64,000 bases of DNA, taken from positions 11,965,275-12,029,274 of the forward strand of contig NC_090716.1 in the NCBI RefSeq assembly GCF_040954835.1, read 5' to 3'. Positions 20,524 through 61,062 of the stretch are shown piece by piece (the first letter of the stretch is position 1; the number at the start of each line of letters is the position of its first letter). This stretch comes from Lepisosteus oculatus. Lineage: Eukaryota; Chordata; Actinopteri; Semionotiformes; Lepisosteidae. Position numbers and translations under genes: made by a program. The notes below the pieces were generated by a model. That model was not told the DNA's origin. It did not search any database and worked only from the letters and a program-made list of their open reading frames with translations.

Positions 20524-23212
20524 ACTTCTGATTTAAGGTTTGGTTTTTCTAGTCCCTGAATAAATTCAATTTTCCCCATCCAAAGACTTAGAAAATATAT
20601 TTTTATGAAAACTGCAACATTATCTGGTAAAAATCTAAAAGTTAGGTCATACAGTATTTTAATAGACTATCAGCAACCGCACTGAGAGACTAGACCATGG
20701 TCCTATACTGCTCTCTGTTGTTCACTTTACTTGTTGCAGACCAGTCAAGACTGAATTTATTGAGTTTAAGCTTCAGCTGTGGACTATGAGGACATCGCCT
20801 GAATGCTCTGTAAAGTGTATTTTGTTATAAGAAATAATCTAGGCATATGTTTTCAAATAATTAGGTGCTAAATTTTATCAGAGAGTAGGTGTAGAACAAA
20901 TGACAATATTTTTTCAGTAGACAAAGAAACTGTCCTAGAAAATCCAGCCCTCACAAACTTGAAACATTGAAAGGTATTCTGATAATAAGCCACTACTAGA
21001 CAAGGACAGGATTGGAGGACGGGCCTGAGGAGCAATAAATTAACTTTAGTGGATTATAATCCTCAGAAACCCTTGAGGGAATTGGATTGAATAAGAACCT
21101 ACAAATTGGGGTGCTACACTCTCCCCTTTTACTACCTGTAGGCTGATAAATTCAAATGTGCTGGATTGCAGTGCACTGAATTAAATGGGACTCCCTAACT
21201 AGTTCAATTACAAAAAAAGCTATAGAACAACATTACTGATTGTACTGATCTGTTTAACATGATTTGTCTTCAATATCGTTTTGCTTTGTAATACACTATT
21301 ATGTAAGGTGGACAGAAACTAAGATGTCCTACAAAGCCAGATGGAATTGTTATGTCAGTGTCATGTTAGAAACAGTATAAAATGACTCATTCAAATATTT
21401 AACGGCTGTGACAGTTGTACAGTAGCTGAAATTGCATTTCTTAATTTGTTTGTTTTATTGTTACTCTGTTGTACTCTTAGCAACCGTGGCCTCCTTCATT
21501 TGCCAAGCGCGACCTTTGACACTAGTGTACCAATGTCCTGTATTCAGCTTTTTCTTATACTTGCTGAGGTAATTTACCCATAACAATCTTTTCCTCTATT
21601 CATAGATCATAATAAGAGAAGATGTCCGGATGAAATTTAGAAATTATTACCCTTGTGTAACATTTATACAAGGTTAGTATTCGAGAAGAGTCAGTAACTG
21701 ACGTTGGGTCTAATGTTGATGAAGAATGGCGTAGAAAATAGAGTATAAAGTCTAATAATAATTGAAGAATGTAAATCATGGGGGACGCTTGGGGTATATC
21801 TCATTTTTGAATGTTGTGCTCAGTTTTGGCCTCCATGATGCAAAAGTGATATTGTGTTTTTTTTTTAATGAGAGCAATCAGTCAAATTCCTAGTCTGAAT
21901 GAAACATCAGATGTAAAGATTAAGACTGAGTACTTTTTGACTGTACTTTTTTTCACTACATTTTTGGGGAAAAAAATGCAATTTACGATGTGAGTCTATT
22001 GTGAATTAAAATATTGCACAAGGATTCTATCTCCTGAAGACTGTAATGGATAATATGCTATATAGTAAAAATTAAAACAATATTGTGAAATATATACAGT
22101 ATATATGAATTTACTGGAGCCTGTTATGTCAGATCTGTAACTGCATATTGAAAGCAATTAGCTTGTGTATATGTATGGCATGACATTTTATACACAATAG
22201 ATATTCCGGTTGTTAAAAACTCCTTATATTTGCAATTTAACAAGAATAACCTTTTAAGCTATATATGATGCTATACTGTATATTTAATTTCTTATATAGT
22301 GTATGTGTCTACAACATTATGTTTACTGGACAAGATTTTTACACTGCAGACTTTTTTCATGAAATCCGTATCTTTTTTGCATGCTATTAATGCATGCCAT
22401 TGCCATGACTTCATAATGAATTTATTGTCATTCATTGCAAATGTCAAACGATATGTCATTTTTGCATTGATTTTTCTTTATTTGACTTGAAGAAATGCGT
22501 CCAAAAAAATTAATATTGACAGCAGGTTCTGTGATCTGCAGCAATTAGCATCAGACCGGAAAGTGTGTATTGCTTTGTGATGCAGCTTAATGAGAATATA
22601 TACATAAAAACTCAATTCTTTTAGCCTGGAAATCAATAGCAAATAACAATAATGACATAGCCAAATATGCTTTGCCATAAAAGTATATTTCTGACAGCTG
22701 GAAAGTATTTTATGATTAAAGCTGTCTTGTTTTATTTATATTTTTTTGGGGGGGGGCTCAACATTGTATTTAAGGCACTACCCTCACCAACTCACCCTGT
22801 ACAGTACTTTAAATAGTCTGCTTGTTCGCTAAGGACTTAAAGACGGTGAGTAGCCTCATTTGTTTTTCAGACTATTACTACTTTGACTGAGTAGAGCAAG
22901 AGATTCATCAACTAAATTTAATGTAACTGTATCAATGTTCCACTAGATGTGCTACAATGATTTTCTGACCTATGTGGATCTTACAATTGATTTTTAGACT
23001 TAGTTATAGTTAATTATAAGCTTCAGATCAGTCTGGATTTTAGAGCACCAGTAATGACAACTGTACATGCAGTGGGTACATAACTTATTATATCTGATTG
23101 CTAAAGGTGTCTGGACCATGACTGTTTTATGACTTTAGATGGGACCTGAGGCCACTTTTATTATGAATCAGACTCCTACATGTAATATTTTTATATGTTT
23201 TATATTTTGCAG
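20524..23212. other. upstream region of the secretin-locus gene
   Basis: No coding exon recognised. Dopamine receptor D4, which neighbours secretin in tetrapods, is not visible here or anywhere upstream in the window. A splice-acceptor-like 'ttatattttgcag' ends at 23212, ten bases before the start codon at 23222, so the transcript may have a non-coding first exon somewhere in this stretch. Confidence 0.4.
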
Positions 23213-23221
23213 GAAGACATC

Positions 23222-24741
23222 ATGGCATTTCTAATTAGCTTTGTGCAGGTACTTGTACTGGCAACAGTTCTCTTCCAAGAAATGACATCACTTCCAGTTC
23301 CTGAGAGGTAAAACTGCCTGAATCTCATGCTTTTAGCTAAAACTTCATTTAGTTCTGTGAAACTATGAGAACTCTGAGATAAAGAATTTTCTTTGGAATA
23401 TAGAAATTGGGTTTCAAACCCTTCGTCTTTAGCAGCCGTCATAGACGCTTATGCCCGTCTTTGGTTTTACAGTATCTTAATTCATTAGTTCACAATACTT
23501 CTGTTCTTCAGGTATTTTAGCTTATATAAATATTTTATAATTACATCATATTTTTTTAAGGGGCATAAACAGGAAATAGATTGTGTGAGTTCGTTTACAT
23601 GTAAAACCAGTAATATAAATACTTTTACGTAAACTGCCTTTTGGGAGCCAAGGTAAGTAAGTGCAGAACTGGAGTTTACATACTGACTCTAAGGGAAGTG
23701 CTCTTCTCATTAATGATGAGTTATGTTAATCATGTTAATAATGTATCAAAGAACACTCATGAGTAATTGAAAGATATAGCAGCATGGAGCCTATTCCAGA
23801 AGCATAGGGAACAAAGCAGGACTACACTCTGGCTAGGATGCTGGTCAGTCACCGGGCACATTCAGACACACAATTAAACCAGATAGCATGGCTTTGGTGG
23901 AAGCACACCCAACACAAATCCATGCACCCATATCAGAACTGAATCCAAGACCAGCGCTATTGCAACCACAATGCAACCTCTTTCTGATCATCATCTTGAT
24001 TTTTTTAGCAGATTCCTCACTAGTGGTGTAGAATGTTCTTATATTTATATGGTATTGCTTTTATGGTTTAGTTGAGTCCATTTCTTGTTTTAGCTGGTTC
24101 ATCAGATGCTTTTAGCACTGTCATGGGTTGCCCTTTTCTGCGCGGTTCAAAACAATGTGTGCATTTCAGCAAAATTGTTCCACGAAAAGACTGTCAGAAA
24201 AGTATTGATCACTTTTTCATTGTATTAATAATGATAAAGAATGCATCAATTTCCCTACGGGATTAATAAAGTATTATCTATCTATCTAATGGAGCTGCTT
24301 TAAGCCTTCTCTTCAAGATCCAGATATTAAATGAAATGTGCCTTAATACTTTTGCAGTCTGTCGGTGGTGTCTGGATTAAGCACAAGACAGCTTGGAGAC
24401 ATAGAATTCTCCAATAGATACGCAGAATTCCTGAGATCCAAGGCCAAGATGAGTACAATCTGCTCCTTTCTACGCCGCATGCAGAGTTCTAAAATAAGGT
24501 ATTTTATTACATGTTACTGTTATTGCTATTGTGTTACGGTCTATTGTCTTATCTTCTGTCCTATTTATATACTGCACCTGAGTGACTAATGAGAAACACT
24601 TTTCGTTATACTATGCACCTGTGTAAGTTTAATGACAATAAAGTTGAATTGAATTTAAATGCGCTCTTTCATAGGAATCAAATTTAATTGTTAGAAATGT
24701 GGACATTTCTTGCAAACAAAATTACTTGCAGTTTTTCAAGA

Positions 24742-24804
<63 letters not shown>

Positions 24805-25142
24805 TACAAGACATACAAGGTGAAATCCTTATGCTTGCACATATAAGTATTATTGCATATTGTATATATAGCTTGTTTACTTTTATCAGAAAGTGTGAAA
24901 ATGAACTGTACTGTGTTAATAGTTGTATATACTGTACATAAATGAATGTATAGACCGTATTTAATATTACTAAAGCTGTAAACATTAGAAGATATGTCTA
25001 GGATGTAAATGTGCTCCTTATTTTCTGCAACAATGTTTTCCAACCCTTATCCAGCTGGACTACTGTTGAAGAAGAGAAGGTGAACCAGCTCATGAGGCAG
25101 TATATGTGCCCAATAGCGAACCAGTGGGCATCAGATTTGTAA
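23222..25142 (+). CDS. sct: divergent secretin-family prohormone (secretin locus)
   Basis: Three coding exons, 23222-23307, 24358-24498 and 25055-25142, join in frame through two phase-2 introns with GT-AG ends and give 104 residues. Residues 1 to about 22 form a signal peptide (MAFLISFVQVLVLATVLF). The centre of exon 2 resembles hormones of the secretin/GHRH/glucagon family: after R39 comes QLGDIEFSNRYAEFL, where F46, [ST]47, N48, Y50 and L54 line up with F6, T7, N8, Y10 and L14 of GHRH (and, except N8, glucagon). R68-R69 would end a 28-residue peptide (Q40-L67). The C-terminal exon starts SWTT and has CP at 94-95, recalling the WT...CP stretch of the mammalian secretin propeptide. Position supports it: cdhr5 follows directly on the same strand, as in human. 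Oddities: the N-terminal His is absent, there is no Gly for amidation, and C64 lies inside the peptide. The alternative is an unrelated small secreted protein that occupies this site. Orthology is inference; the splice model is firm. Confidence 0.6.
23787..23972 (+). repeat. partial dispersed SINE/LINE-tail repeat in an intron
   Basis: A degenerate piece with 'gcacattcagacacacaat', 'gatagcatggctttgg' and 'catatcagaactgaatcc' corresponds to the middle and 3' parts of the repeat at 5757-6103. It lies within the first intron of the secretin-locus gene. Confidence 0.55.
24741..24804. repeat. (ATT)n microsatellite
   Basis: About twenty uninterrupted ATT/TAT units in the second intron of the secretin-locus gene. 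Read in frames they give artificial poly-Leu (plus) and poly-Asn (minus) peptides, which should not be taken as coding. Confidence 0.97.
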
Positions 25143-25262: not shown

Positions 25263-25268
25263 AATAAA
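25263..25268 (+). terminator. polyadenylation signal AATAAA of the secretin-locus gene
   Basis: A canonical AATAAA lies about 120 bases after the stop codon at 25142, a normal distance for a short 3' untranslated region. Confidence 0.6.
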
Positions 25269-27429: not shown

Positions 27430-30400
27430 ATGGATTTAAAATATAAAAGATTTTCCGTCAACGGGATCCTCTTTCTCCTACTCCTGTTCTTCCTCCACAG
27501 AGAATGTGACTGTCAAAGTAAGCTTGTTCTTCAGTATATTTATATTTTCTCTTTTTTAAGATCAGTTTTAATTAGAATACTATATTTCCTGGGCTTAAAT
27601 GTATAGTAACAGTACAACAATATTATTGTAAAACCACTCTTTACTGCTCCTTCCCTGCTGATTTCTGTACTCTTTATGACAGGAATATCATCTGTGTTTT
27701 AATATAGTGTTTTTTTTCAGAATTGGATGTGTTTTTCCCTCCTAATTTGTGTTATAAATCTTAATTGTCCGGGGAAGAAGTTTTATGGTCTTTTCCATTT
27801 TTTAAAACCTGTTATATACAGTACATTTTACATAGAACACTTGTATAGATCTTAAACCTGTATTTACAATGTTAAATAACAATAATAAGAGGTTGCAAAT
27901 AGACCATACTTTTTAAAAGCGCTTATGTAGGCTTTATATCAAAGGAGAGTACTTTAGACTTCCTTTCTAATTCTGTTGTCTCCCCCGAACAGAATAAAGT
28001 CTGATTTCTTATATGAAGAATTTCTTCGTGCTGGTGCACTGGAGCTGAATTACTGATCCTGAGGGTGGAATTCCATCTGTCAGTCCTATAACATCACTTC
28101 TTGCAAAATACTTTTCCTTATAGCTCTCTAACCTTAGTATTGTCCAGGCTAAGAAACAAGTTTACAGGCATTCATTACTCCATAGTGGTGTAGAGTAGAC
28201 TATGTGAATGTTTTTTCTGAGCAGCCGTGATATACAGTATAAAGTTGTTTCTGATTAACAGCAATAGTTATTGTGCAGTATGTAATTCATGTAAATGTTC
28301 TTTCTTTATGGTTCTTTTCTCATTTGTGTCTAGTTTGTTCTCTGCCTGTTCCTGTACCCATACAAATCGAGGAGAACAACGCCATTGATCAGGAAGTTGT
28401 AAATATCACCACATCAGCTGGTGTAAAGCTTACCATATCTGAAGATAAAAGTCAAGCATTTGCTTTGCATGATAAAACACTAGTTCTGACAAAACAAATG
28501 GATTATGAGGTATCTGTCTGTCTTTTGGTATAACTGTTGAATCATTTAAGTGACATTACCTAACATGAAAGTCTTTCAGATGATTCATATTTATTTGGAA
28601 AATTTTCAAGTACAATATAAGGTAAATTAAAAAAAAATGTTTGTGTTTGTTTTTCAGAATATGGCAGAGAAAGTGATCATAGCCTCTATTCGATGTGAAA
28701 AAGAAGCAGAAACAGTGGTATTATTGTTCTTGTTGTTGTTCATGTTGTTATTATTATTATTTATATGATATAATTTCTATATGATTATAGATGGCATTTG
28801 TACCCAACGTGATAGGCTAATGGGTGGTGTTGTACATATATTCAATGCTAAAGCATTACCTGCTTTTTCCAATGGGAGTCATACAAAGGATACAATAATG
28901 GTATGTAATACAGTAGAAGCATCCCTAGAATACATCCTTTTTCAAGTGTTTCTTAACACTTTCTCCTCCCCAGCTGTTGGGGAGGAGATGAGAAGGTTGT
29001 ACTAGTTTTATCTTCCTGACCAGGAAAAAAGGCTAAAATAGTGTATCAACCTGTATACCACCAGATCCCTTAATACTGTCAGTTAGTCTGAAGTCCTTAT
29101 AAGTTGCAATATGCCTAAAACTCTGCAGTTGTTGCCTAAAAAGTAATATATTCAATCTGAGATCTTGTTACGAGTTTTTTGTCTCTGAATAATCCGGCTC
29201 TGTCATACATCACTGAACTTCTTCATGTATAGTATACACTTTCTCCATAGTCGTTCAGGTGGGGAGCTGCGTCAGCATGAGTAGGCTGCAAAGGAACAAG
29301 TAATAGGTTTATTCCTGCTGAAAAGAGAAGAAAGAAAATGCAACGTTTCAGCCATGGAGCCTTCTTCAGCTGTGCCTTCTTCATACCTGAAGAAGGCTCC
29401 ACGGCCGAAACGTTGCATTTTCTTTCTTCTCTTTTCAGCATGGAATAAACCTATTGCTTGTTACTTTCTCTGTAGGCTCTGTTCAGTTGAGGTTGGTTTT
29501 TTAGTCATCTCAGACTGCTGGGGACCATACTTTTTCTCTCGCTTCTCAATTATTATGGAATACCCTTCCTCCAACCTTTCAAGAGACAAATTCTTTGGCT
29601 CTTTTAAAGACTAAACTTAAAACTCATATTTTTACTAGGGCATTTACTGTATGTATTTTTAACTTGTATTTACTTTTATCATACTTTATTTGTGAGCACT
29701 GCGTTTAAATTGATGCTTGTTTTCTATCCTTTTTTTTAGGTTTTTTTACATATTTTTGTTGAAATAACAAATGTTAATGAATATCCTCCATATTTTCAAG
29801 AACTAAGCTATACTCTGTCTGTAGATGAGGTAAGTGTTTTAGGTTTGGACTACATTCAGAGTCCTAAGACATGATAAATTCGGAGGCTTATTGGGCACCT
29901 GTAACCAAAAATGCCTTCAGAAAGCTACTATAGTTAATTCTGCAGGTTCTAGAAGCAATGTTTTAATATTACTGTACTGTCTATGATACCCCAGTTAAAA
30001 TTAAATCCTAGTTTTATCTTTTTAATTTGCCTGTTACCAATGTTTTTTGAGATGCAATGAAGTATGACCCCCAATTTACTTAGTAAAATTAAGGGCATAA
30101 TTCGAATAAGTTAAATAACAAGTCAGAAGTGACATCACAATTAAAATAGATTTCAAAGGACCTAGAAAAAAATATAGTTGGTGCTTACCATTCTGGAGAG
30201 AGTTGCAAACCCATTTCTAAATATCTGGGGCTCCGTCTGTCTGCTAACAGACAGACAATCTACAGTTGGAGAAAATTCAAGACAATGGAGACTGTACCTA
30301 GGACCAGTCGTCCTGCCAAAGTCTCCTTAAGAGCAACCTGATAACCATCCAGGAAGTCTAGAAGAAATCCGGAGTAAGGTTTATCGATTTGGAGACCTGT

Positions 30401-33400
30401 CTCACCGTGGCTCATGCCTCAGCCTTCAAGAAAAGACTGAACGAGAAACGTTTTCATGGATAGATAGCCAGGAAGAAACCATTATCCTAAAAAAAGAACA
30501 TTATTGCCTTTCCAAATTCACCAAAAAACAATTTTGTCCTCCAGACAGTTGAATCTGAAGTTGAGCTTTTTTGCTATAATGGAAAACATTCTAAATCTCT
30601 GACTTCTAACAGAAGAACCTCATTCCAGCTGTCTAGCATGATGGTGGGGGTGTCGTGGTCTGGGGCTGTGTTGCTGCCTCAGGATCTGGATCCTGATCTT
30701 GGCATTGTATTGGCAAATTCTGAAGGAAAATATCAGGCCATCCATTTCTAATCCCGTACTCATGCTTATCTCTGTTGGTCGTCTGTCACCAACATGTGTA
30801 GAAGGAACCCGCGTGATATTCCTTTCTAAAAGTTTATTTTCTAAAAAAAATTAGAAAACAAGTCGGGGGTCCTGCAACTGGTAGTGGGGATGTAACTACT
30901 TGCCTGCCCCAGCATGCTATTCCTGACTCCCATGTCCCCACCTCATCACCTGGGTACACATCCATTAGCTACAGCTGGAGCAGTGTCATGTATAGTAGCA
31001 AAACCAATGGCCCTAAACATACAATCAGATCTACAACTCAGTGGCTGAAGAAGACATTTTGAATTTCAGGATGGCCAAGGTAAAGCCCATACCGAAGTCC
31101 CACTGAAAAGTTATGTCAGCACCTGAAGAGAGCCGTTCATGCGAGGAAACACTTAAGTGTCTCTGACCTGAAGCAGTTCTGTATGTATGAACAGGCCAAA
31201 ATTAATAAAAGCCAAGAGACTGATAAACAGTTGCAGGAAATGTTTACTTGAAGTCCTTGTTGTTCAATGACTACTTGTTACTGATTTTAATATTCAGATT
31301 TAAACATTTTGAAGGGGTGCTGGAGATATATTTCAATATTACACGGCATTCACCAGTGTCGCTAAATTTGTTTTTTTCAACGAACGTTCTCCTTAGTGTA
31401 TTTGAGAACTCCTTTTAGAGATTTGTAGTCAGAAATTATAACCCACATTTTCCCAAAAGAAGGAAAAGCTTTATTAAAGTGTATTTTTTAAATATAGTTC
31501 CAACCAGTGAACACTAACATCGGCAGAGTAAATGCTGAAGATCGCGATGGGGATAGACTTTATTACCACTTGGACAACAGCACCGTAAGTCTCAGGCTTT
31601 TCCTTTCTCCATACAGGTATATCTGTGAAATCTAATGTGAATCAAGCCACTTTAATTAGCTTTATTTTTTTATGTAAAGTAGATGGACCTATAGTATACA
31701 GCCTTAATTGCTGTTTTCCTGCTGAATTTTTGACATTTTATTAATTCATTTACAAATCTGTTTAGACAGTATTTGTCCCTACATACTTTGATTTAAGTCT
31801 AGCAGGCCCTGGCTCTATTGTAAAATAAAACATTTGATCCAAGAGGTGTTGTTGTAGAATTGTTAACCAATTCTATCACTTTATCCATGACCCCAGCTAT
31901 TTTCCAGCTCTTTTTAATGTTTTACTCTTTGTTTGCCTTCTTAGAATTTCACGATGCTCTGAGAATTTGTTGAAGTTTACATTTTTGACAATGTGCTCAC
32001 TGTCCTTAATTAGAACATGAAGTTACTAATACTCTACATACAGGACTTTAAACAGAAATACTGTTTAAATATGCTTACCCATGCACATTAATTTCTTTTA
32101 CAGAGTGGGGCTCAATATTTCCATTTGGCAAGTGTAACAGCCCCAGACATCTTAGTGAGTAAAATCTTGGACTACGATTCAACCCCCAAGTTGGATCTTA
32201 TCTTATTTGTACGGGTAAGTTTCACAGGTTGCTGTGTGTTTTCCTAATATAGGTTCACTCAGAACTCTAATGGCACTCAGATCATGACTCTCATTCTCTC
32301 TATAGGATACTGAAAATGCTGGGGCTGCAAATTCCCACACAGCTTCCACAAACATAGCCATCGATGTTAAAGATATTGATAACCGCCCGCCATGGTTTCT
32401 GCCATGCAAGGAAATTTCATTTGATGATACCCGTACCAAAATATGTCTCAACATGGGCTATAAAGGAAGTGTCAATTTAACTGTTAAAGAGGTAGGAAAA
32501 AACACACTGTTTTATTTCTCAAACATGCGAAGGATGTGATCATTGAGTTCTGTCTTAAAAACTGGTGCAAGTAAAGGTACACAGAGCATTCAAACTTAAA
32601 AATGTACAGTACAAATCTCCATGTACTTTGACAGGAGTTTGTGTCTGAGACGCATGCAGTAGAAACCTGATCATATTGATCTGTTAATTTGGAATGTCAG
32701 ACCATGCCAGTGTATTGCTTTTCTTTTTCCATGTTCTGCATTCAGGAATACTGAATACATTTCCTATTCTAAAGATATTTAGATTTGAGTGTTTAAACTT
32801 GGTTGTTTGTCAGAAATTTCAACAGGAAAACCTACCATTTTTTTTGCAACTGTTGTAGGTGTAAGGACTGTTGTACTTGTTTTACAAGCTTAGTATAACT
32901 TCACTCAAATCAGCTTGATTTGGCCATAATGTATTTGGTGGTTTGTGTTATAGGAAGGGGTATTGCCTTTGAAACCTGAACCCCTGTATGCTATTGATGG
33001 AGACAAGGGAATTAATGAACCGATAGAGTATTACATTTTGAGTGGTAAGTAGGGAAACACTGTTCAAAGTTTTGATTTTTAGAAAAGTAATTCCTTTATT
33101 TGTTTTGGGGAAGCTAGTTATGTTTATATTACAGTGCACTTTTAAACTTTTACACCTATAAATGAAGACTTTATCTGAGACTTTATCTGTCAATAGATTT
33201 ATATGCTTTTTGTGCTGTTTTACATCTAACAGGGAATGAAGCAGGTCTGTTTGACATGAATAGTAATACTGGAAATATCACAATGTTAAAAGCTGTGGAT
33301 ATAGCAGGGCCAATACTCTTGACAGTTATGGTAAGTGCATTTATCCAGTGAAGGAAATCATTGTGTTTATGAGCAGTTTTTAAGAAACTTTAAAGCACTA

Positions 33401-36400
33401 AAATATACTTGGAAAACTCTGGGCTGCCATCGGAAATACCTTTCATATATTGTATAGAATCTGTATATGCTTCTCCATGCTTTTGCTAATTTTTAGATTT
33501 CTAATGGTGAATCTTTGAAGAAACAGATTCATTGATTATTCTTCCATCTTTCAGGCTTTCCAGACTAAGAACCCCAACCAGTTTTCTACGACGTCTGTTG
33601 TTATAGATGTTGTGATGAAGACCCTCAACCCTCCTGAGTTTGAAAAGCCCAGATATAACGGGTTTATATCCAGTGACTCAGATGTGGGGAGTATGGTCCT
33701 GGAAGAGGGGTTTTCTGCTAGGCCCTTGAAGGTCCTTGCTACGGACGCCGATTTCGCAGATGTGAGTAAAGCATCTTCTTCATTGTGATCTTTTTTTAGC
33801 CCATTCCCTTGCTCATTGTCCTCTGCAACCCCTTTAATTGCTGTTGCAATTATTTAATTGGCTTAAAGTCATGTGGCCTAGATGGACGGTGTACACAGAA
33901 CAGGCACACAAAATAAGGAGGATAACGGCGTGTAAGCAAAACACTTCAGCAGGCACTGAAATGTTCCAGTACCGCTTAATGCTTTTAAGAAGATTTTTTC
34001 TGAAATTAGGCTTTCAGTGCAGGAAAAATTAATAGCTCTTTCCTGTTTCTTAATATTTACTGTTACAGTCTCATTGCAACACCATCTCCTTTGTTCTTAT
34101 TTTACCATGAAGTATGTTAAGATTGTTTGACAATCCAAATTATTTACTGCTATTAGTAACTATTTATTACAATCAAAATAAAAAAGAACTGGTATGAAAA
34201 TATACACATTATAAAAAGTATATAAACAGTATATATTATAAACCATATAAACGTATAAAAACAATAGTAAGACAATACCTCTACCCCACAGCAATAACCA
34301 CAACACAAAATAAATGAAAAAACTAAAATAAAGCACTCAATAAAGAACAGGCTAAGGAATGTGTTTTTAATCGAGATGCAATTTCTTGTTTTGATAAATA
34401 TTCACTGTCTTTTCTATGACATTCCAAATTGAGCTCAGGTACATCTAATTTCCTTGTGAGATCACTCTAAAACTTGAATGAAATACACTTGAGGTCAATT
34501 TAATTGCTTAACTTGATTTCAGAAGTAACACACCTGTCTATAAAAACCAAATACAAGCAAATCCTTTGGAAAAATATGTTTAGCAATAAAAAACATGTTG
34601 CACTGCATTCAATGACTTGGCATATTAAATAATTACAAGAGACTGTTCTAAAGTGGACACGAAAACAATGCATGGACATCAGCATAGGGGTGCTATAATT
34701 GAATCTGTTCAACCAGTTCAGAATTCAGTACCAACCACAGAACATAAAAAAAACAAACGCTAGGAGGTAAAAACAGACCTATAAAAATGGCAGAAGATGC
34801 TTCTTATAGCATGTGCTTAAGTTTTCCTGAAACAATTCCTGTTCTTATTTTAGGGTGTAAACCCTAATGTTGAATATAAAGTCCAAGACAACAATGACCT
34901 TACAGTGACTAAAGAAGGTTTTATTCTTACGAAGAAGATCTTACAACCTAACACAATTATTGCACAAGTAAGTAATCAGTATATTTTTATTTTGTTCTCT
35001 CTGGGAGAACTAAAGTGAGGGCATGTGTTAGTTTTAAGGAAGCATGTAAATATGTATCGTGTATAATGTAAGACAATGAAAGTACTCAGATTACAGTATA
35101 TACCACTTTTGGGTAACAAGACATTTAGGATTTTCAAGTCAATGTATTACTCAACGGGGTTTAATACAACACAACATATTCAGTATTAAATTTCAGCTTA
35201 TTTATGTGTCATGACACAGTTTACTTGACATGTTTGATATATCGGCTTATTTTGTCTGTGGTTCAAAAGTAAAAACAAAGAAAAAAAGGTCTCTTCGCTT
35301 GCAGATGTCAACAAGATTTTTGGTCTTTTGTCTCAATTGTATTTCCTCCAGATAATTGCTGAGGATATGTCAAATGGAGAATCTGCCTCAACTATAGTCA
35401 CAGTTGAGGTGCTAATGGGTGAGCAGAATTTTAGTGAAATTGTGATGTAAAAATATGTTAGTGTATTTGCTAAACAAAACTTTGAGAAAAGGTTAAAAAT
35501 ATATCTGTATTCTAGCGTGTATTATTGTAGTATATTAAGTATAAAAATATGCCTAGATTATGTATGTTTATTATAGAGGTGAATTGTATCTATATTTTGT
35601 ATTGTATCTCCATTTTTGTCAAGCTGCAGGATATCACAAGTATGATATTAAAGAACAGTAACTGGAAATTAAGATTTTGAAAACTGCTAACATTGGTACA
35701 GTACATCATTTTGAGCACATTATTTGCTAATCCTTTGATAATTGTTTTTCTTAAAATATAAAAAGTAGGGGTCAAAATGTTATAAAGATCATGGTGCTTT
35801 TTCATTAATTTTCTCCTCATTATGGGTTTCCATGAATATTTGTGTGTATCAAATTATTTTCCGCATTTAAAAATCTGCTTTGATTCACTTACTGGCTAAA
35901 AAATTAGGAAGACTCTGTAAAACGACTTGAATCTCTCTGTGACAAGTTATTTGTTTGCTAGATTGAGGAGAAGAAAACAGACTTTTATCCACATCCCTGA
36001 GTGAACAATCTCCAGGTCTCAAGCCTAATGAGCTCAAACTGCTGGAGCCACTGGCTTGTGCTGTTCAACCTAACTCACCTTTACTCTCTTCATCACTTCA
36101 GATGGCAGCTCTGCTGGAGAAGGGTGTGAAACTGGCCTGATAATATTTCTGAGCCTCATTGACTGCAGGTTGAGCTCACCCGGCTGCTTGTGATGATCCA
36201 ATAAGTCAATCAGAGGGGATTCTTTAATGTTTTGGCCACTGAGTTCATAATGCAAATGTTATGAAGTGTTATTTGCTGTATCATACTGTACCTGGGGTTT
36301 CTTCCTCAGAAGGAAAGTTAGCTCAGCAGCTTTGCAGCTGCCTGTCATTGGGCTCAGCCTTGAGTTCTGAACACATGATTGTCCTCCAGAAGGGACACCT

Positions 36401-39400
36401 TCTCTCCTGAAGGTAGTCTCTGCTCAGACCTGGCGTAACTGCTGTTCTTCCAGGTGCTACCACTGCCATGCCTACCACAAACGCCACAACAGATCTGTTC
36501 AACAGCACCACTGCCCTCCCTACATCAGAGCCCACCCAGACCCCTGATGCCACCTATGGAAGCTCACCCTGGTCACCCTCCCCCTCATCTCTTCTCCCCA
36601 CTTCAGGTCCTCACACAGGTAGACCAGCACTGCTCCGGAGCCCAGCTGGTGCAAAACATGTACTTTTGCTATTAAGACAATTAAGTACTGTCTTAATAGC
36701 ACTGTAAGTATTATTACAGTGCACTAACCATGAAATGAAGCCAGTTGCCTAGCTAAAAATTATAATATGAGATGAAATGTATCTATTATATAGTCTGTTT
36801 CTCCAGTTTGACCTTTTCATCTAACATTACTACTGTATGTTACAACTAGAATTAATTACAGAAACTCAACGGTGGCATTTTGAGATTTGCTGTCATTGCT
36901 GCATAGTTGTGGACAAAACATTTTCTGAGCTTTCATGGAACTTTATTGTCCTCAAAATAAGCAAATGTTTGTAACGACGAAGATTATTTATTATTCTTGT
37001 CCAATCTATCGCACCATTTTCTTTAATATTTTTTGTCTGGCTCAAATCATTTGTCAGACTTAATAACTTACTTTCTGGCCAAAATATTAGGAAAACTATC
37101 AAATGACTTGACTCTCTCTGTGACAAGTTATTTGTTTGCTAGATTGAGGAGAAGAAAACAGACTTTTATCCACATCCCTGAGTGAACAATCTCCAGGTCT
37201 CAAGCCTAATGAGCTCAAACTGCTGGAGCCACTGGCTTGTGCTGTTCAACCTAACTCACCTTTACTCTCTTCATCACGTCAGATGGCAGCTCTGCTGGAG
37301 AAGGGTGTGAAACTGGCCTGATAATATTTCTGAGCCTCATTGACTGCAGGTTGAGCTCACCCGGCTGCTTGTGATGATCCAATAAGTCAATCAGAGGGGA
37401 TTCTTTAATGTTTTGGCCACTGAGTTCATAATGCAAATGTTATGAAGTGTTATTTGCTGTATCATACTGTACCTGGGGTTTCTTCCTCAGAAGGAAAGTT
37501 AGCTCAGCAGCTTTGCAGCTGCCTGTCATTGGGCTCAGCCTTGAGTTCTGAACACATGATTGTCCCCCAGAAGGGACACCTTCTCTCCTGAAGGTAGTCT
37601 CTGCTCAGACCTGGCGTAACTGCTGTTCTTCCAGGTGCTACCACTGCCATGCCTACCACAAACACCACAACAGATCTGTTCAACAGCACCACTGCCCTCC
37701 CTACATCAGAGCCCACCCAGACCCCTGATGCCACCTATGGAAGCTCACCCTGGTCACCCTCCCCCTCATCTCTTCTCCCCACTTCAGGTCCTCACACAGG
37801 TAGACCAGCACTGCTCTGGGCCCAGCTGGTGCAAAAAACATTGACTATTTGCTTCTCAACAAGCATTTTGTTTCTCAGGGATACATAATGAGTGAAGAAC
37901 CTTTGTTCTTCGTTTGCAGGACCTTTACTCATCTGTATTTTAACACTGCATGTTACGTAGCACCTGGTTTAGTTATATTAAAAGTGCTTAATTTGAAATG
38001 AAACTGCATGTATTGCGCATAGCACACTTTCTCGCTTAAATGTTGAATATTTAGAATATATTCAGCTCCTTGTCAAATTATATTTCAGCAGAGCTTTTTC
38101 TCCAAAAGTAATCTGCTACTTTACTTTTCCTATAGCGATCATCTGCCTCTTTTGTCCCAAATGACTCTAAGAGGCTAAAAGTGTAGTGCCATATTATTAC
38201 ACTGCGTGCAGTAGAATATTCACACATTTTGCATTATTTTGGATAAAATAATGATGCTGTCTTTTGATATAAGTTTATACTGGTGCAATGAACTCTGATG
38301 TATTTGTTTTATCTAACATTAGATGTGAACTGTTCAACATTGAGTCAGACGGATCCTGGCCTAATCAGTGTTGCTATGCACTGCTGATTTCCAATCAGTC
38401 ATTCTGGTGTTATATTGATTGTCTCTTGTTTCACCTGGCTGCGCTAATGCTAGCACAATTCTAACAAGCATTTAGAGGCACTTTATCTTCTTTTTACCTC
38501 GTGCTTTTGATAACATCAGGCATGTGTTATTGTCAATTAACTGTAATCACATTGTCTGTCTTTAGAATTCACACAGACATCTTGTGTTTTGTTGTTTGCA
38601 TATTAGTCAGTGACCAATGAGTACCTATCTTGAATTGTCTTATTTTTGTCATTTCTTATGTTTATAAGTGAACAAAACTGAATAATAGAAACATATTTAC
38701 TGAAAACCTATTTATAATTTAAAAAATAAAAACCCTTTCATGGCAACTCTTCACCCAGCTACCCCACAGGGGGAACCCAAAACAGGTCCATCAGTGTCGA
38801 GTTCAGTAGTGCTTCTATTTCATTAACCACTATCTTACAAGGTTGTTGGGTTTCATACAAGGCACCATGGACCCAAGCAGCAGCTATCTTGATAAGAGGC
38901 ATGTAAAGTATGGTCAGTTGGCACTAGGAGAAAGAGTGCAGTAGGTGCCAACAACAGAGAAATGACCCTTGTGGTAACAGTAAAGTCAGCCAGCCACACT
39001 CTTTTCTGCAGCTTGGTTTAAACATAACGAGAGACATCATTTCAGTATTAGAATTTTTATCTTCATCCTTCTAAAAATACATTAATTAATTCACTTAGAT
39101 TGGAGGAAATTGATAAATAATTAAAAAGAAGGCAGTATCTTACTGATTATGTACATCCCCATCCATGTTTTGTTCTGTGTCATTAGGATAAACTGCACTC
39201 TTTTATCTCCTATTATCTATGAAACTTCTTTTTTCTCCAGCGTTTCTCATCTTCTCTGCTTTTGTAGGTGGCGATGCAGTGCTAACTGGTGCATACAGTC
39301 CAGAAGACATGGCTGCCCTGGGAGCTACTCTTGCTGTCCTGCTCATTCTTTCGATGGTGATAATTGGCCTGCTGGTATTTAAAATCTACAAAACAAAAAC

Positions 39401-40385
39401 AGACTGGAAAAAGCTATCTGAAGCCAGTATCTTCCGGAGTTCTGTAAGCATAACATCGACATAATTGGTGAAATAATTCCTAATACAAAAGTAGTGTGCG
39501 ATGCACAATATGCACAGGATATCTCTCGGCAGACAATCAATATACTCTATTTGAAGCTGTTTTTTCAGTGCACTGCAAAACTTTGGCATACTTGTTGAAG
39601 TTATATTTAGGATTCTTTTGTATTTTAACATTTTTTTTTAGGTAATTAATTATAAATGCAATTTCAAACACAAGGCCTGAAGATTTTTCCCTGGCAAAAT
39701 GTAGGATTTTTGTAGTACACTCACTCAATAAATGATCTGAATATATTACTAAAGCATTCTCCTGTGACATGTGATCCATCTTTATTCTTTTTCTCCCCGA
39801 CAGATTGGCCGCGGTTCCTCTGCAAATGACGGGATGCAGTTTGTAAATGATGGTTACAAGAATGGTGATGATGCAAGCAGTGTTGATTCCAAATGCCCAG
39901 ACGAGGTTGACCACAATATATACGTAAATCTACAATCAAAAACCCAAGAGCTTCCCGAGCCTGTGAGCTTCTCGGCAGCTCCTGCTCTGGCCTCTGATCT
40001 GCTGGGAGATTCAAGCAGCCTGGCTGGGTCCGACAAAACAGAAAGTGAGAAAGAGGTCAAGCCCATCCTCACCAAGGAAAGAAGGAATGAAGAGGGGTAT
40101 AAGTCCGTCTGGTTCAAAGAGGACATTGATCCCAATGCTAAAGAGGAAGTAGTCATTATTCCAGACAACCCAGAGACCGAAGCTGTGGAAGATTATGAAT
40201 CCTTAGCTGGGGATGACAGTGACAAGGATCCTGAGTCTCCAACACCCCAAAGAAAAGCGTCCTTGGAAGATGCAGAGATTAAGTTTACCAAGACCTCCGC
40301 CGTCCGCTTCCAAGACCCCAAACCTCACAGTGGAGACAAATATAAATTGGACACTGACAACGAGGAAGACAACATATCTCTGTAA
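27430..40385 (+). CDS. cdhr5: cadherin-related family member 5 (mucin-like protocadherin)
   Basis: A 16-exon model encoding 820 residues (human 845). Exons: 27430-27517, 28334-28509, 28658-28717, 29740-29829, 31498-31584, 32104-32214, 32306-32491, 32954-33044, 33233-33330, 33555-33761, 34854-34967, 35352-35418, 36454-36618, 37635-37799, 39268-39443, 39804-40385. All join in frame with GT-AG ends. CDHR5 is a brush-border cadherin that pairs with CDHR2 across microvilli and anchors through the intermicrovillar adhesion complex. Residues 1-28 are a signal peptide. Cadherin repeats show calcium-site motifs such as VNEYPP (about 120), DRDGD (153), DIDNRPPWFLPC (227-238), AIDGDKG and ATDADF. Two Thr/Ser/Pro-rich exons follow (460-568), then a membrane segment (about 584-606) after YSPEDMAALG, and a cytoplasmic tail containing ILTKERRNEEGYKSVWFKED, nearly the human sequence. 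The tail ends NISL. Identification is very secure; the first exon and the use of both mucin exons are less so. Confidence 0.95.
28720..28770. repeat. imperfect TTG/TTA trinucleotide repeat
   Basis: A short, interrupted run of 'ttgttgttgtt' and 'attattattatt' immediately after the donor of cdhr5 exon 3. Confidence 0.8.
29285..29465. mobile_element. complete palindromic MITE-like element in a cdhr5 intron
   Basis: Two arms of roughly 85 bases are near-perfect reverse complements about a centre near 29380. The left arm reads 'gcaaaggaacaagtaatagg' through 'caacgtttcagccatggagc'; the right arm reads 'ggctccacggccgaaacgtt' through 'cagcatggaataaacctat'. It encodes nothing and can form a long hairpin in the cdhr5 pre-mRNA. 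Other copies are at 6366-6551, 10644-10736 and 15921-16004. Confidence 0.85.
29480..29700 (+). repeat. 3' fragment of a degenerate non-LTR retroelement
   Basis: The run 'tatggaatacccttcctcca' with 'acctttcaagagacaaat' and 'aaagactaaacttaaaac' matches a reverse-transcriptase-end or 3' UTR segment common in fish LINEs, followed by AT-rich sequence. It ends only about 40 bases before cdhr5 exon 4. Family not assigned. Confidence 0.5.
30110..31330 (+). mobile_element. Tc1/mariner transposon relic in a cdhr5 intron
   Basis: 'tggagagagttgcaaaccc', 'ggagacctgtctcaccgtgg', and especially 'atggtgggggtgtcgtggtc' followed by 'tggggctgtgttgctgcctc' correspond to the well-known middle of Tc1-type transposase genes. 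No long open frame remains, so the element is dead. It is interrupted around 30760-30970 by sequence of another kind. Confidence 0.75.
35932..36660 (+). repeat. tandem duplication unit, copy 1 (carries a mucin exon)
   Basis: This segment is repeated 1181 bases downstream with only a handful of substitutions. It contains roughly 520 bases of intron, the mucin-like exon and its donor. A further 50 bases upstream are also related but clearly more diverged. Confidence 0.97.
36454..36618 (+). CDS. cdhr5: cdhr5 mucin-like exon, copy 1
   Basis: A phase 1-1 exon of 165 bases encoding a Thr/Ser/Pro-rich stretch that includes TTALPTSEPTQTPDAT and SPWSPSPSSLLPTSG, with N-glycosylation sequons NAT and NST. 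It belongs to the O-glycosylated stalk between the cadherin repeats and the membrane. A second in-phase donor (after CTTCAG at 36606) would shorten it by four residues. Being symmetrical, it can be included or skipped without breaking the frame. Confidence 0.8.
37113..37842 (+). repeat. tandem duplication unit, copy 2
   Basis: Near-identical to 35932-36660. Visible differences include a T/G near the 'catcac(t/g)tcag' block, a T/C in 'gtcc(t/c)ccag', a G/A in the exon (NAT versus NTT), and a small change and indel around 'ctgctc(cg/tg)g' at the 3' edge. Confidence 0.97.
37635..37799 (+). CDS. cdhr5: cdhr5 mucin-like exon, copy 2
   Basis: Same length, phase and splice sites as copy 1, differing in the protein by one residue (Ala to Thr in the first sequon, NTT). 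Joined in tandem the two exons give about 110 residues of Thr/Ser/Pro-rich stalk. In human CDHR5 the stalk grew by repeats inside the coding sequence; here it grew by duplication of a whole exon with its upstream intron. Confidence 0.8.
37843..39267. other. cdhr5: last large cdhr5 intron, no other gene
   Basis: AT-rich intronic sequence between mucin exon copy 2 and the membrane exon. I see no third copy of the mucin exon and no recognisable mobile element. Confidence 0.5.
39268..39443 (+). CDS. cdhr5: cdhr5 transmembrane exon
   Basis: Encodes the juxtamembrane SPEDMAALGA motif, very close to human VDMAALGG, then the hydrophobic run TLAVLLILSMVIIGLLVF and the stop-transfer KIYKTKTDWKK. It starts in phase 1, as required by the upstream mucin exon, and ends in phase 0 into the cytoplasmic exon. 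Confidence 0.92.
39804..40385 (+). CDS. cdhr5: cdhr5 cytoplasmic tail exon
   Basis: Encodes 193 residues and the stop codon. The conserved block PILTKERRNEEGYKSVWF with an acidic follow-on (KEDIDPNAKEEVVIIPDNP) identifies the family. The rest is acidic and Ser-rich. The last residues, NISL, do not fit a class I PDZ ligand but have the hydrophobic-x-hydrophobic form of class II. As I recall it, the human tail ends DSYI, so the exact C-terminus is not conserved. Confidence 0.93.
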   Translation: MGRGSSANDGMQFVNDGYKNGDDASSVDSKCPDEVDHNIYVNLQSKTQELPEPVSFSAAPALASDLLGDSSSLAGSDKTESEKEVKPILTKERRNEEGYKSVWFKEDIDPNAKEEVVIIPDNPETEAVEDYESLAGDDSDKDPESPTPQRKASLEDAEIKFTKTSAVRFQDPKPHSGDKYKLDTDNEEDNISL

Positions 40386-44010: not shown

Positions 44011-53466
<9,456 letters not shown>

Positions 53467-56991: not shown

Positions 56992-59900
56992 TCAGAAATC
57001 TTCTTGGTCTTTCTGCAAGCTCTGCAGACCAGGAGAATAAAGTATGTGAGGCTGAATTTGGGCCAGAATAGGTCCTTCTGGGGCTCCAACCAGGAAAAAA
57101 GCTTCATCCACCTCCAGTCCCCAGCCGCGAAGTGACTGTATTACCTTGGAGCTCACTTCCTTATTGCTCCGGGCTGTCATCAAATAGGTACATAAGGGGC
57201 TGCTGTCTCGGCCAAACTTCCTTCTCATCTCCCCAATTAGTCCTGCAAACTCTTTCATTGCCCCCTGAAAAAAATAACAGTATAAAACGGTATAAAAATA
57301 ACAGTGTTTCATCTCCAGCAGCAATAACAATTCAATGTTATCGATAATACTGTCAAATCTGCTGTACCCTGCATTAGGACTTCTTCTCCCTTATCCTGAT
57401 TTATCAAGACAGTTATAAACCACTTATCAGAAAAAAAATCAATTAGGGAAACTTTTAAAGTATGACTACTCCTGAAAAATTAAAAGAAGCATTGCTGGGC
57501 GAAAATCCGATTGTAGAAAAGCTACAAAACCCTTGATAATATAACATAACGCCTTTAAGTCGATCTTACATATTATAATGAGTACTTCTGTACCTTTGCT
57601 GCAGTTGCATTCTGAAGCTCCTTCTTGGAGTCCACAGGTTCAGCGAGCTCTCCTCCCCTCAGCCCGAGCTCTGCGCTGTTTGAGAGCACATCGTCCCCAG
57701 TGAAGAGGATCCTCAGCTGGTCTGTGGGTGCCTGGGCATCCTGCCTGAACAGGAGAGCTGCTGGAATTCCTGAAGTATACACGACAATGCAGAAAAGTGG
57801 AACTTCTGTTTTGTCTACAATTATGATATACAGTACAAGCATTCTGTAGAGTTAAAGAGTGCTAACATTCTTTTATCCATGACAAACATGTATTTTCTAT
57901 ATCTGGAATCAGTTTAGAAGGCAGTTAGGTCGAATGTTGCTCTCTTACCTTTCTTTAGTTCTCATATCTCTATTAACTTAAGACTTGCTGCCCACAATCT
58001 CGATGTTGTAGGAAGTGTTTCCACATGTTATAATAGCAGAAAACAAGTGAAATATTTGATTAAATTGTTGATTCTTATAAAATTGTGTTGTATTTCCTGA
58101 TTGTCAATGATGTTGAAGATGTTTCACCATAGTTTATTCACACACTCTTTTTAAATCACATGGTAATTGAATATAACTCAACTAAATACCGTGAATCAAA
58201 CAAGACATTAATGATGTTAAAATGTATCCACAACATTTTACTTTAAACATAACTGACCATGAAACAGTCATTCCATGAATGATATAGCTGGATAAAATAT
58301 TATCAGTGGCTATTTCACACAAAGAATGTGAAGGAAAATAATTAGAACCCAAGTATAGTAAAGCAGTTGTGCAAAATTGCAATAAAGGAACTGGGTACAT
58401 TGGGTAATGAAACATTTTATAGAGAGTCTGTATTCCTTTACATTATAACATTATAATTTATAAAGATTGACACTTTTTATCATAACACTTTCCATATGAA
58501 GATGGATGGAGAGATAGAAACATCATGTGCTTGATTTCACGTGATATAAGACAGCATTTTTCGTCACAAGATACACAACTTTGGTATATGCTTTTTTTTT
58601 GCATTAGGTACAGCTACCCGTCACCCTGAGCAGGTGGACATACCTTTCTTCAGAGTCTTGCAAACATTGGTCTTATCTGTTGACAGGAACAACTTCACAT
58701 TGTTTGACTGCAGGTGGTCTACAAAATCATCATTACGGAAAAAGCAAAATCTGCTGATGTCCAAACCTGGAAGAGAATAATCACATATCAGCCTTTAACA
58801 GGCAGAAAGAACAGACCTGGAATCTATACCTAAATTAGGTAATGGCTGTGGCTGGCTTAAAAAAAGCTACAGTAATAAGTTCTTTTTCTTCCACATTCTA
58901 AAGACATGCCATCTATGTTAATCAGTGTCATTAAATCATCTCTGTGTACTTGTGTGTGTATCATACACAAAGCAGGTTTCTTGTTCAGGGTGTTGGTCAT
59001 CCTGTCTGGTACCATGTTCTTCCGAGATCGTCCCAGTAAGGATCGTGTGAACTCTAAGTGGCTTTCTGATAATGGACAGATGATAAATCTCAGTCAATTT
59101 ATTTATCTGACAGTTTTGTCCAAGAGGACACTGCAAGGTATGTATCTCTCTACAGAGCCTGAATGTGCAGAATTCAAATGTAGTGCTGTGAAGTCATGCT
59201 AAACCAGCTGCTGAATCTTCCCAGAAATGGGCCTGCGAAATTGATATTCTTGTCTTTAACTAGGTGACCAAGTGAGTATATGTCTCACTTACCATAATGC
59301 TTTGCACTGTTGACTAGCTGCGTGCGGATTTGGGGTCTGTTATCAGATACAAGGATCACATCAAATAAATGTGTTTCATCAGGATTTTTCTCCAGCAGTT
59401 TCCTGTTAACCATCTCAGCTGCCTTCACAAGACAGATGAGTCAGAGTCAAGACACACTGCCTCACGGACCATTTGTACTGTATATTCCTGAGACTGATTC
59501 AACCACTGGATTTCTTTTCTTAATTTAAGCTTTTAGCATTTCTTAATTTATTTGCATCTATTTTAGTTTCAGTTAGCAGTTATCAAAATCCTGGGCAACA
59601 TTTACAAAGATTAAATTTATTCTATCTTGGGTATCACATCATATAACAAAGCAAAGCAGTCCAATAGATCAGCAAATTAGATTTATTGAAAGTGCATTTT
59701 TTTCTATACACTTTCCATTTATTTTTCGTAGTACATCTTACCAGATAATAATATTTTATATCTAAATTACACTTGAGGAAATCAATGCAAACTATTTTAC
59801 CATCCTTAAAATGAAGCTAAAGTGCCTGAATGCAGTATTAATTTATTTGTCCTAAAAGGTACATGTACATTTAGCATAACAATACTGGTATTACTGTAAA

Positions 59901-61062
59901 TAGGACCACACTGACTTCCAGTACTGATTTTGAGCAAGTTCTATTCTAAAAAGCAGGACAATAACAAAATAATTTCAAATATTAATATTTCATTATGATG
60001 ATTGACAAGTTTCTACTGTGTTTCCTGTAGAAATTGTCATGACACACAAAAATTTTCACTTCCTACAGCTGAAGATTTTCTGCTTTAGACGACAAGAGAG
60101 ACAAACACAGTGCTCTACCTTGATAAAGGGGAAGGCAGTGCCTGGCTTCAGCAGTTCAGTCCCGAGCTGCTTTTCAGTCTCTCTCTTGCTCTCCTCTGCA
60201 CTGAGCTTTTGTTCCTCTTCCAGGTTAAAGATCGCGTCTGATGAGACTGCAATCACGATTGCTCGATTGTAGTCTTTCTGCAGGTAGACAAAATCTTCAA
60301 AATATGACTGCACATCAAGAAGCCAGATCAATCTGTGGCTTTGAATATTTTAATACCCATAGCAAATACAGAGTGGTATCTCAATAGAGCCTAATCCCAC
60401 TCTCCACGGTGATACAGCTTTTTGTATTTCAGAGATACCCTGGGAGTAGGTTATTTCTTCACACATGACTGAAAGAAAAGAGATACTGACACATCTAGTC
60501 TATTTTATCCTCAGCCCCCATGCACAACATCTAAATTAAAATTAATTCCCTCCTTTAAAAACCTACTCCTTTTTTTTGCCTAAAAATGCAACACTATATA
60601 CACTATGTAAGTGTATATATCTGTGTAAACACAAATCAAATCTGAATCCAGTTTCAAGACTGCTAAAAGTCTACTTTGTATCACTCTTTAAGAAACTGGT
60701 TAATTCAGTGTCACCACTGCTGTGATTCTAGTATAAACTACAGTACCTCTGAATTAAGACTCATTACGACCTGAAATAATGTTTATTATTAAAATTAGTA
60801 TAACTGCTAAAATTAAGAGGCTTATGAAATTAATTATTTTTAAATATTTGGAAGAAAGTACAAACTTAGTTTTTAAGCTCTACATTCCAGTTACTTATGG
60901 ATGTGGTAATGGTCTAAGATCATTTTTTTTGTGTATATCACTTTGTACTGTCATAAACATTAGTCTCTATTGGTTACAACCATTAATGCGTTACATAAAC
61001 TGATTAAACAATCTTACCTGTTTTACATTAATGTTCACAATGGTATTCTCACTCTGTTCCAT
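56992..61062 (-). CDS. cytosolic 5'-nucleotidase 1-like protein, probable pseudoenzyme
   Basis: Six coding exons on the minus strand (61018-61062, 60119-60277, 59293-59422, 58644-58766, 57594-57769, 56992-57264) join in frame with GT-AG ends to give 301 residues; human NT5C1A has 368. Family blocks in order: AIVIAVSSDAIFNLEEE (21-37), PGTAFPFIK (60-68), HLFDVILVSDN, GIPAALLF, LRILFTGDDVL (171-181), CTYLMTARS (236-244) and SLRGWGLEVDEAFFLVGAPE (255-274). NT5C1 enzymes dephosphorylate AMP or IMP in the cytosol using a haloacid-dehalogenase-type aspartate. Here the expected FDGDAVLF reads FTGDDVLS, so the nucleophile position is T176. The lysine of GAPKG is E274, and the FFDD metal-site acids are replaced by LYSP (S288, P289). 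The fold thus seems kept and the chemistry lost. A clean frame and intact splice sites argue against a pseudogene. It could be a fish-specific paralogue; I give no symbol because orthology is unclear. Confidence 0.85.

Follow-up and report, generated by a model that had tools for sequence, protein, structure and literature searches.

Secretin genes of fishes were described by Morash et al. (PLoS Biol, December 2025; PMC12714231), who recognised sct in several fishes, zebrafish and gar among them. In that paper, the zebrafish gene si:zfos-2372e4.1 was recognised as sct by tblastn with gar and elephant shark intermediates and by synteny; the elephant shark gene is LOC121850333, gar sct is located on chromosome 21, and gar LOC107075768 is included in the alignment. 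Zebrafish sct is expressed in a ccka-rich enteroendocrine cluster, and its peptides were seen by mass spectrometry, every zebrafish peptide of the fish-conserved region starting with pyroglutamate. The authors consider the likeness in the secretin region limited and suggest that fishes retain a second, C-terminal peptide. The same text mentions that secretin activity was claimed for salmon gut extracts in 1903 and that later work repeatedly missed fish secretin. In an earlier study (Tam et al. 2011; PMC3084839), DRD4, DEAF1 and ASCL2 are given as genes syntenic with SCT, a receptor is reported from lungfish, and no secretin was found in lungfish or fish databases. Thus two background statements of the original prediction, that secretin had not been described in teleosts and that it had been described in lungfish, do not agree with these sources. 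Fish secretin is already known, the main claim having been in print since December 2025.

The gene considered here lies in a 64-kb stretch of gar DNA (64,000 nucleotides, below called the window). It is very probably the secretin (sct) orthologue of this non-teleost ray-finned fish and probably the gar gene aligned by Morash et al. as LOC107075768, judged by locus and description. The orthology is supported by position and orientation, by the phase-2 exon structure, by six sister genes found elsewhere in the genome and by the presence of a secretin-receptor (SCTR) gene, and not by similarity. Together with the published fish sct, these lines of evidence bear out the core of the original prediction, namely a secretin orthologue beyond the reach of plain similarity searches. 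As described in PMC12714231, the fish genes share with the window gene the syntenic locus, a secreted precursor (the zebrafish signal peptide is predicted at residues 1-23) and a weak likeness to mammalian secretin. Moreover, the window gene has a Gln after a basic residue that could yield pyroglutamyl peptides of the kind published for zebrafish sct. A copy of sct in a non-teleost would mean that fish secretin has been altered, not lost, and makes the gar product a ligand to try on the fish secretin receptor.

The predicted gene consists of three coding exons on the plus strand, which are joined in frame into 315 nt including the stop codon and encode a 104-residue secreted precursor, MAFLISFVQVLVLATVLFQEMTSLPVPESLSVVSGLSTRQLGDIEFSNRYAEFLRSKAKMSTICSFLRRMQSSKISWTTVEEEKVNQLMRQYMCPIANQWASDL. 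Exon 1 (23222..23307) starts with the ATG at 23222, corresponding to C21:11988496, encodes the signal peptide and LPVPE, and ends in phase 2 at the donor GAGAG/gtaaaa. On inspection, the hydrophobic run FLISFVQVLVLATVLF suggests a signal peptide of approximately residues 1-23. Exon 2 (24358..24498, 141 nt) is the hormone exon and is in phase 2 on both sides (tttgcag/.../gtattt). Exon 3 (25055..25142) encodes the C-terminal peptide SWTTVEEEKVNQLMRQYMCPIANQWASDL, the first Ser codon of which spans the junction with exon 2; the exon ends with the stop codon TAA. Both introns have GT-AG borders and are in phase 2. The three-exon structure and the motif FSNRYAEFL in exon 2 are thus present as originally claimed. 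An AATAAA polyadenylation signal (25263..25268, plus strand) starts 121 nt 3' of the stop codon. A possible promoter or the end of a 5' non-coding exon (22808..22844, plus strand) was observed upstream, with TTTAAATA at 22808 and the donor GACG/GTGAGT at 22845. This candidate is weak; the spacing is too short for both elements to be right, unless the exon starts further upstream. In a search of the whole genome with the precursor (E<=10), all three matches were its own exons on C21, with no sign of a second copy. The 64-kb window yielded nothing in Rfam and tRNA scans.

The order of genes on contig C21 is DRD4(-), sct candidate(+), CDHR5(+). Human DRD4, SCT and CDHR5 have the same order and relative orientation. 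The CDHR5 gene (28255..40382, plus strand) encodes cadherin repeats, a mucin-like repeat, a transmembrane segment and a conserved tail, ILTKERRNEEGYKSVWFKEDI. Using human CDHR5 as a query, we obtained six tblastn pieces (32110-40223, E from 6.8e-9 to 0.005), with matches that include RPPWFLPC, the transmembrane segment and, in the tail, ILTKERR-E-GYK-VWF-EDI. The joined pieces, including the part from 28255 that was read by eye, match the Pfam Cadherin profile at 3.4e-16. A stretch of the mucin-like region is duplicated (36417-36704 and 37598-37885, about 1.18 kb apart), the two frames being near-identical over most of their length. Two more genes were observed on the minus strand, cathepsin D (44017..51635; recovered in eight tblastn pieces by human CTSD) and a cytosolic 5'-nucleotidase of the NT5C1 type (56995..60349). 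In the latter, the joined frames at 56995-57851 match PF06189 at 3.4e-19, and the segment 60059-60349 was recognised by eye only.

No DRD4 was found inside the 64-kb window at E<=1. Exons of this gene are located at C21:11950450-11956758 on the minus strand, outside the window on its 5' side, the nearest about 32 kb before the sct start codon. The joined pieces score 289 bits against the solved D4 receptor and 150 bits against D3; its first exons were not recovered from the piece of C21 examined. The location of the gene upstream of CDHR5 on the same strand, which the original prediction had compared with the position of human secretin, was confirmed, with DRD4 on the other side of the gene, outside the window. 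No gene was recognised by eye among the open frames of at least 50 residues at window positions 1-22.6 kb (68 on the plus and 64 on the minus strand), where small exons could escape notice, and three open frames from this region that were scanned gave no match. The DRD4 query also revealed a second D4-like gene on C7 and, at C2:3.72-4.60 Mb, a large array of mostly stop-free frames of rhodopsin-type receptors, perhaps trace-amine receptors.

We then considered the complement of the family in this genome. The hormone profile PF00123 had 12 matches, ten of them over the cut-off and none on C21 (all 34 candidates were scored); the two matches below the cut-off had E values of 1.15 and 3.85. By our reading of the sequences, the ten matches correspond to PRP and PACAP (C6), GHRH (C16), glucagon, GLP-1 and GLP-2 (C12), PHI and VIP (C17), GCRP (C1) and GIP (C31), that is, to the six genes ADCYAP1, VIP, GHRH, GCG, GCRP and GIP, each in a single copy. 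The GLP-1 is identical to GLP of the alligator gar. No better secretin was thus found elsewhere in the genome among the matches over the cut-off, the matches with E 1.15 and 3.85 standing outside this reading. Secretin is the expected family member without a canonical gene in this genome, and the window gene occupies the secretin locus. The GIP hormone is itself divergent here, YAESTLASDISKIVDSMVQKNFVNFLL (C31:9498397-9498477), with Leu for Phe at position 6.

The hormone exons of the family lie between phase-2 introns, and exon 2 of the sct candidate (phase 2 on both sides) is consistent with this pattern. In a crude splice scan the best-scoring donor was in phase 2 in all ten hormone exons, or in nine of nine real ones, as the PACAP exon is the last exon and its donor is spurious. 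The best acceptor was in phase 2 in nine of the ten; in GCRP the best was in phase 1 and the second best in phase 2. The genome also contains a secretin-receptor gene at C12:6.50 Mb, which scores 398 bits against the solved SCTR, 358 against PAC1 and 351 against VPAC1; it was assembled from pieces picked with human SCTR, and this choice somewhat favours SCTR.

The similarity of the peptide itself is another matter. A family-profile search, suggested in the original prediction as a check on identity, did not recover the gene: the 104-residue precursor and the peptide had no match to PF00123 or any other Pfam profile at the E limit of 10, with HMMER filters dropping most matches above about 0.1. 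All nine known hormones run alongside as a control were matched by PF00123, and the peptide cannot be assigned to this profile from its sequence. A PDB sequence search gave no match; in viral contigs, five stretches fit a pattern and none was confirmed. Scanned with a matrix of ten family peptides, the mature precursor scores highest at the 27-mer LGDIEFSNRYAEFLRSKAKMSTICSFL (24392..24472, plus strand), with shuffle p of 0.0076 and 0.0073, and a matrix of the ten family exons of this genome gave p 0.0127; these values are uncorrected, seven families and one subset having been tried, and the family-corrected p for the secretin family is about 0.05. The 27-mer ranks fourth among the 26,540 open 27-mers of the window. 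Its family-matrix score is 8.7, whereas the ten family exons found in this genome score 33-60. By similarity alone, the peptide would be placed barely above chance.

Alignment of precursors does not single out secretin, as GHRH and VIP score about as well. With mammalian sequences, the local alignment of the mature precursor had p of 0.037 with pig secretin precursor and 0.42-0.64 with those of rat, mouse and human; human GHRH (p 0.050) was about equal to pig secretin. The global alignment p values were 0.010 for pig, 0.021 for human, 0.20 for mouse and 0.40 for rat secretin, 0.026 for GHRH and 0.021 for VIP. The controls insulin, NPY and PTH were not significant. The helical moment of the peptide is unremarkable (p 0.54) and uninformative.

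The register of the 27-mer corresponds to secretin positions 1-27, with D3, F6, S7 and Y10. Of the two family traits named in the original prediction, Phe at position 6 is present (Phe46), whereas the N-terminal His or Tyr is absent, position 1 being Leu41 with Gln40 before it. The acidic residue at position 3 is Asp43. D3 and F6 are shared with mammalian secretins and are not universal in the family: position 6 is Leu in GIP of this genome and Tyr in GLP-1. Unlike the mammalian sequences, the window gene has lost His1, Gly4, Thr5 and Thr7, lacks the Gly-Lys-Arg amidation and cleavage site after residue 27, and has a shorter C-terminal part. Instead, Arg68-Arg69 (24473..24478, plus strand), the sole adjacent basic pair in the precursor, directly follows the 27-mer with no Gly before it. 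The N-terminal cleavage site is a single Arg (Arg39) with no basic residue close upstream. Within this genome, GHRH, VIP and PACAP are identical to the window peptide at 5, 6 and 4 of 26 in-register positions, respectively, including D3, F6 and Y10, and share the phase-2 exon border; however, they score far above the PF00123 cut-off (55.3, 46.7 and 47.9 bits), whereas the window peptide has no match. If the gene is secretin, the absence of the activating His1 would provide a natural experiment on the switching of class B receptors.

These features suggest the following scheme of processing. The signal peptide (about residues 1-23) would be removed from the prepropeptide, of which exon 2 carries the hormone. 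A prohormone convertase may cleave after Arg39 and at Arg68-Arg69, and the arginines would be trimmed. Gln40 (24389..24391, plus strand), a candidate N-terminal pyroglutamate by analogy with the zebrafish peptides, could then cyclise to give a 28-residue peptide, pGlu-LGDIEFSNRYAEFLRSKAKMSTICSFL, residues 40-67. The product would be helical when bound to a class B receptor, presumably the SCTR whose gene is on C12, and may act on targets in gut and pancreas by raising cAMP. The placement of Gln40 fits the published pyroglutamyl peptides. Our assignment of the mature peptide to pyroglutamyl residues 40-67, in the secretin register and ending before Arg-Arg, is tentative and has somewhat less than an even chance of being right.

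Another possibility, only slightly less probable than this assignment, is that the gene is sct by descent, its exon-2 peptide is inactive, and the conserved fish hormone comes from the C-terminal part encoded by exon 3, for example as QYMCPIANQWASDL, starting from the Gln after Met-Arg. In PMC12714231 the fish-conserved pyroglutamylated region is placed on the C-terminal side of the segment that aligns with human secretin, and the Gln that directly follows an Arg in exon 3 offers an alternative peptide start. There is also a likeness, seen by eye, to the C-terminal peptide of pig (WT...E..QL), where the statistics are weak: against pig, local p is 0.037 for the whole mature precursor of the window gene and 0.093 for the C-terminal 33 residues of the latter. 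On the other hand, exon 3 contains no dibasic site, and just 14 residues follow the Arg in question. Moreover, when mammalian precursors were aligned over their full length with MAFFT, in three modes, Phe6 of human secretin faced Ser37, nine residues before Phe46. Through such a register slip the hormone exon could be taken for a region C-terminal to secretin, which we offer as a hypothesis about the published alignment. Where Morash et al. describe a conserved fish peptide C-terminal to secretin, we regard the hormone exon itself as its likely source. It is conceivable, although rather doubtful, that the secretin of ray-finned fishes acts on SCTR without His/Tyr1 or amidation, starting instead with pyroglutamate, and that the 'second' peptide of zebrafish is secretin misread through a slip of about nine residues. 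If true, the N-terminal end by which a class B hormone activates its receptor would have been rebuilt here.

That an unrelated small secreted peptide, or one like parathyroid hormone, sits at the locus by coincidence seems improbable. The overall similarity is weak, the best window of the PTH/PTHrP matrix is also at Gln40 (p 0.042), and by eye a phase-2 intron likewise seems to precede the PTH-family exon on C21. However, the frame of the latter continues to a stop codon, whereas in the sct candidate an intron follows the hormone, and the genome's three matches to the PTH family lie elsewhere, on C7, on C5 and at C21:9.00 Mb. The glucagon/secretin matrix also fits better (p 0.007) than the matrices of other families (p 0.04-0.52), among them TIP39 (0.14), CRF (0.27), NPY (0.085), galanin (0.52) and orexin-B (0.12). 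A PTH-like identity was rejected on these grounds, PF01279 being unmatched as well. The PTH-family gene on the same contig (C21:9001458-9001598) is 3 Mb from the sct candidate. Human PTH and SCT likewise share a chromosome arm.

It is still less probable that the three exons were joined by chance or represent a decayed, unexpressed gene, as exon 1 with its non-coding-like codon usage might suggest, since the frame is intact, with a signal-peptide-like start, consensus splice sites, a poly(A) signal and raised GC content, and an expressed zebrafish counterpart is in print (PMC12714231). Codon usage was compared with null stretches. Exons 2 and 3 are weakly coding-like, with 9% and 14% of the null stretches, respectively, scoring equally high; the value for exon 1 (40%) is indistinguishable from non-coding and uninformative. 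None of the 4000 null stretches scored as high as the full coding sequence, a comparison in which open stretches of 104 codons to sample are few. The GC content is 44% at the gene and 34-36% in the neighbouring 4-kb windows. A long run of ATT trinucleotides was observed in intron 2 at window positions 24743-24803 (approximately), about 250 nt 5' of exon 3.
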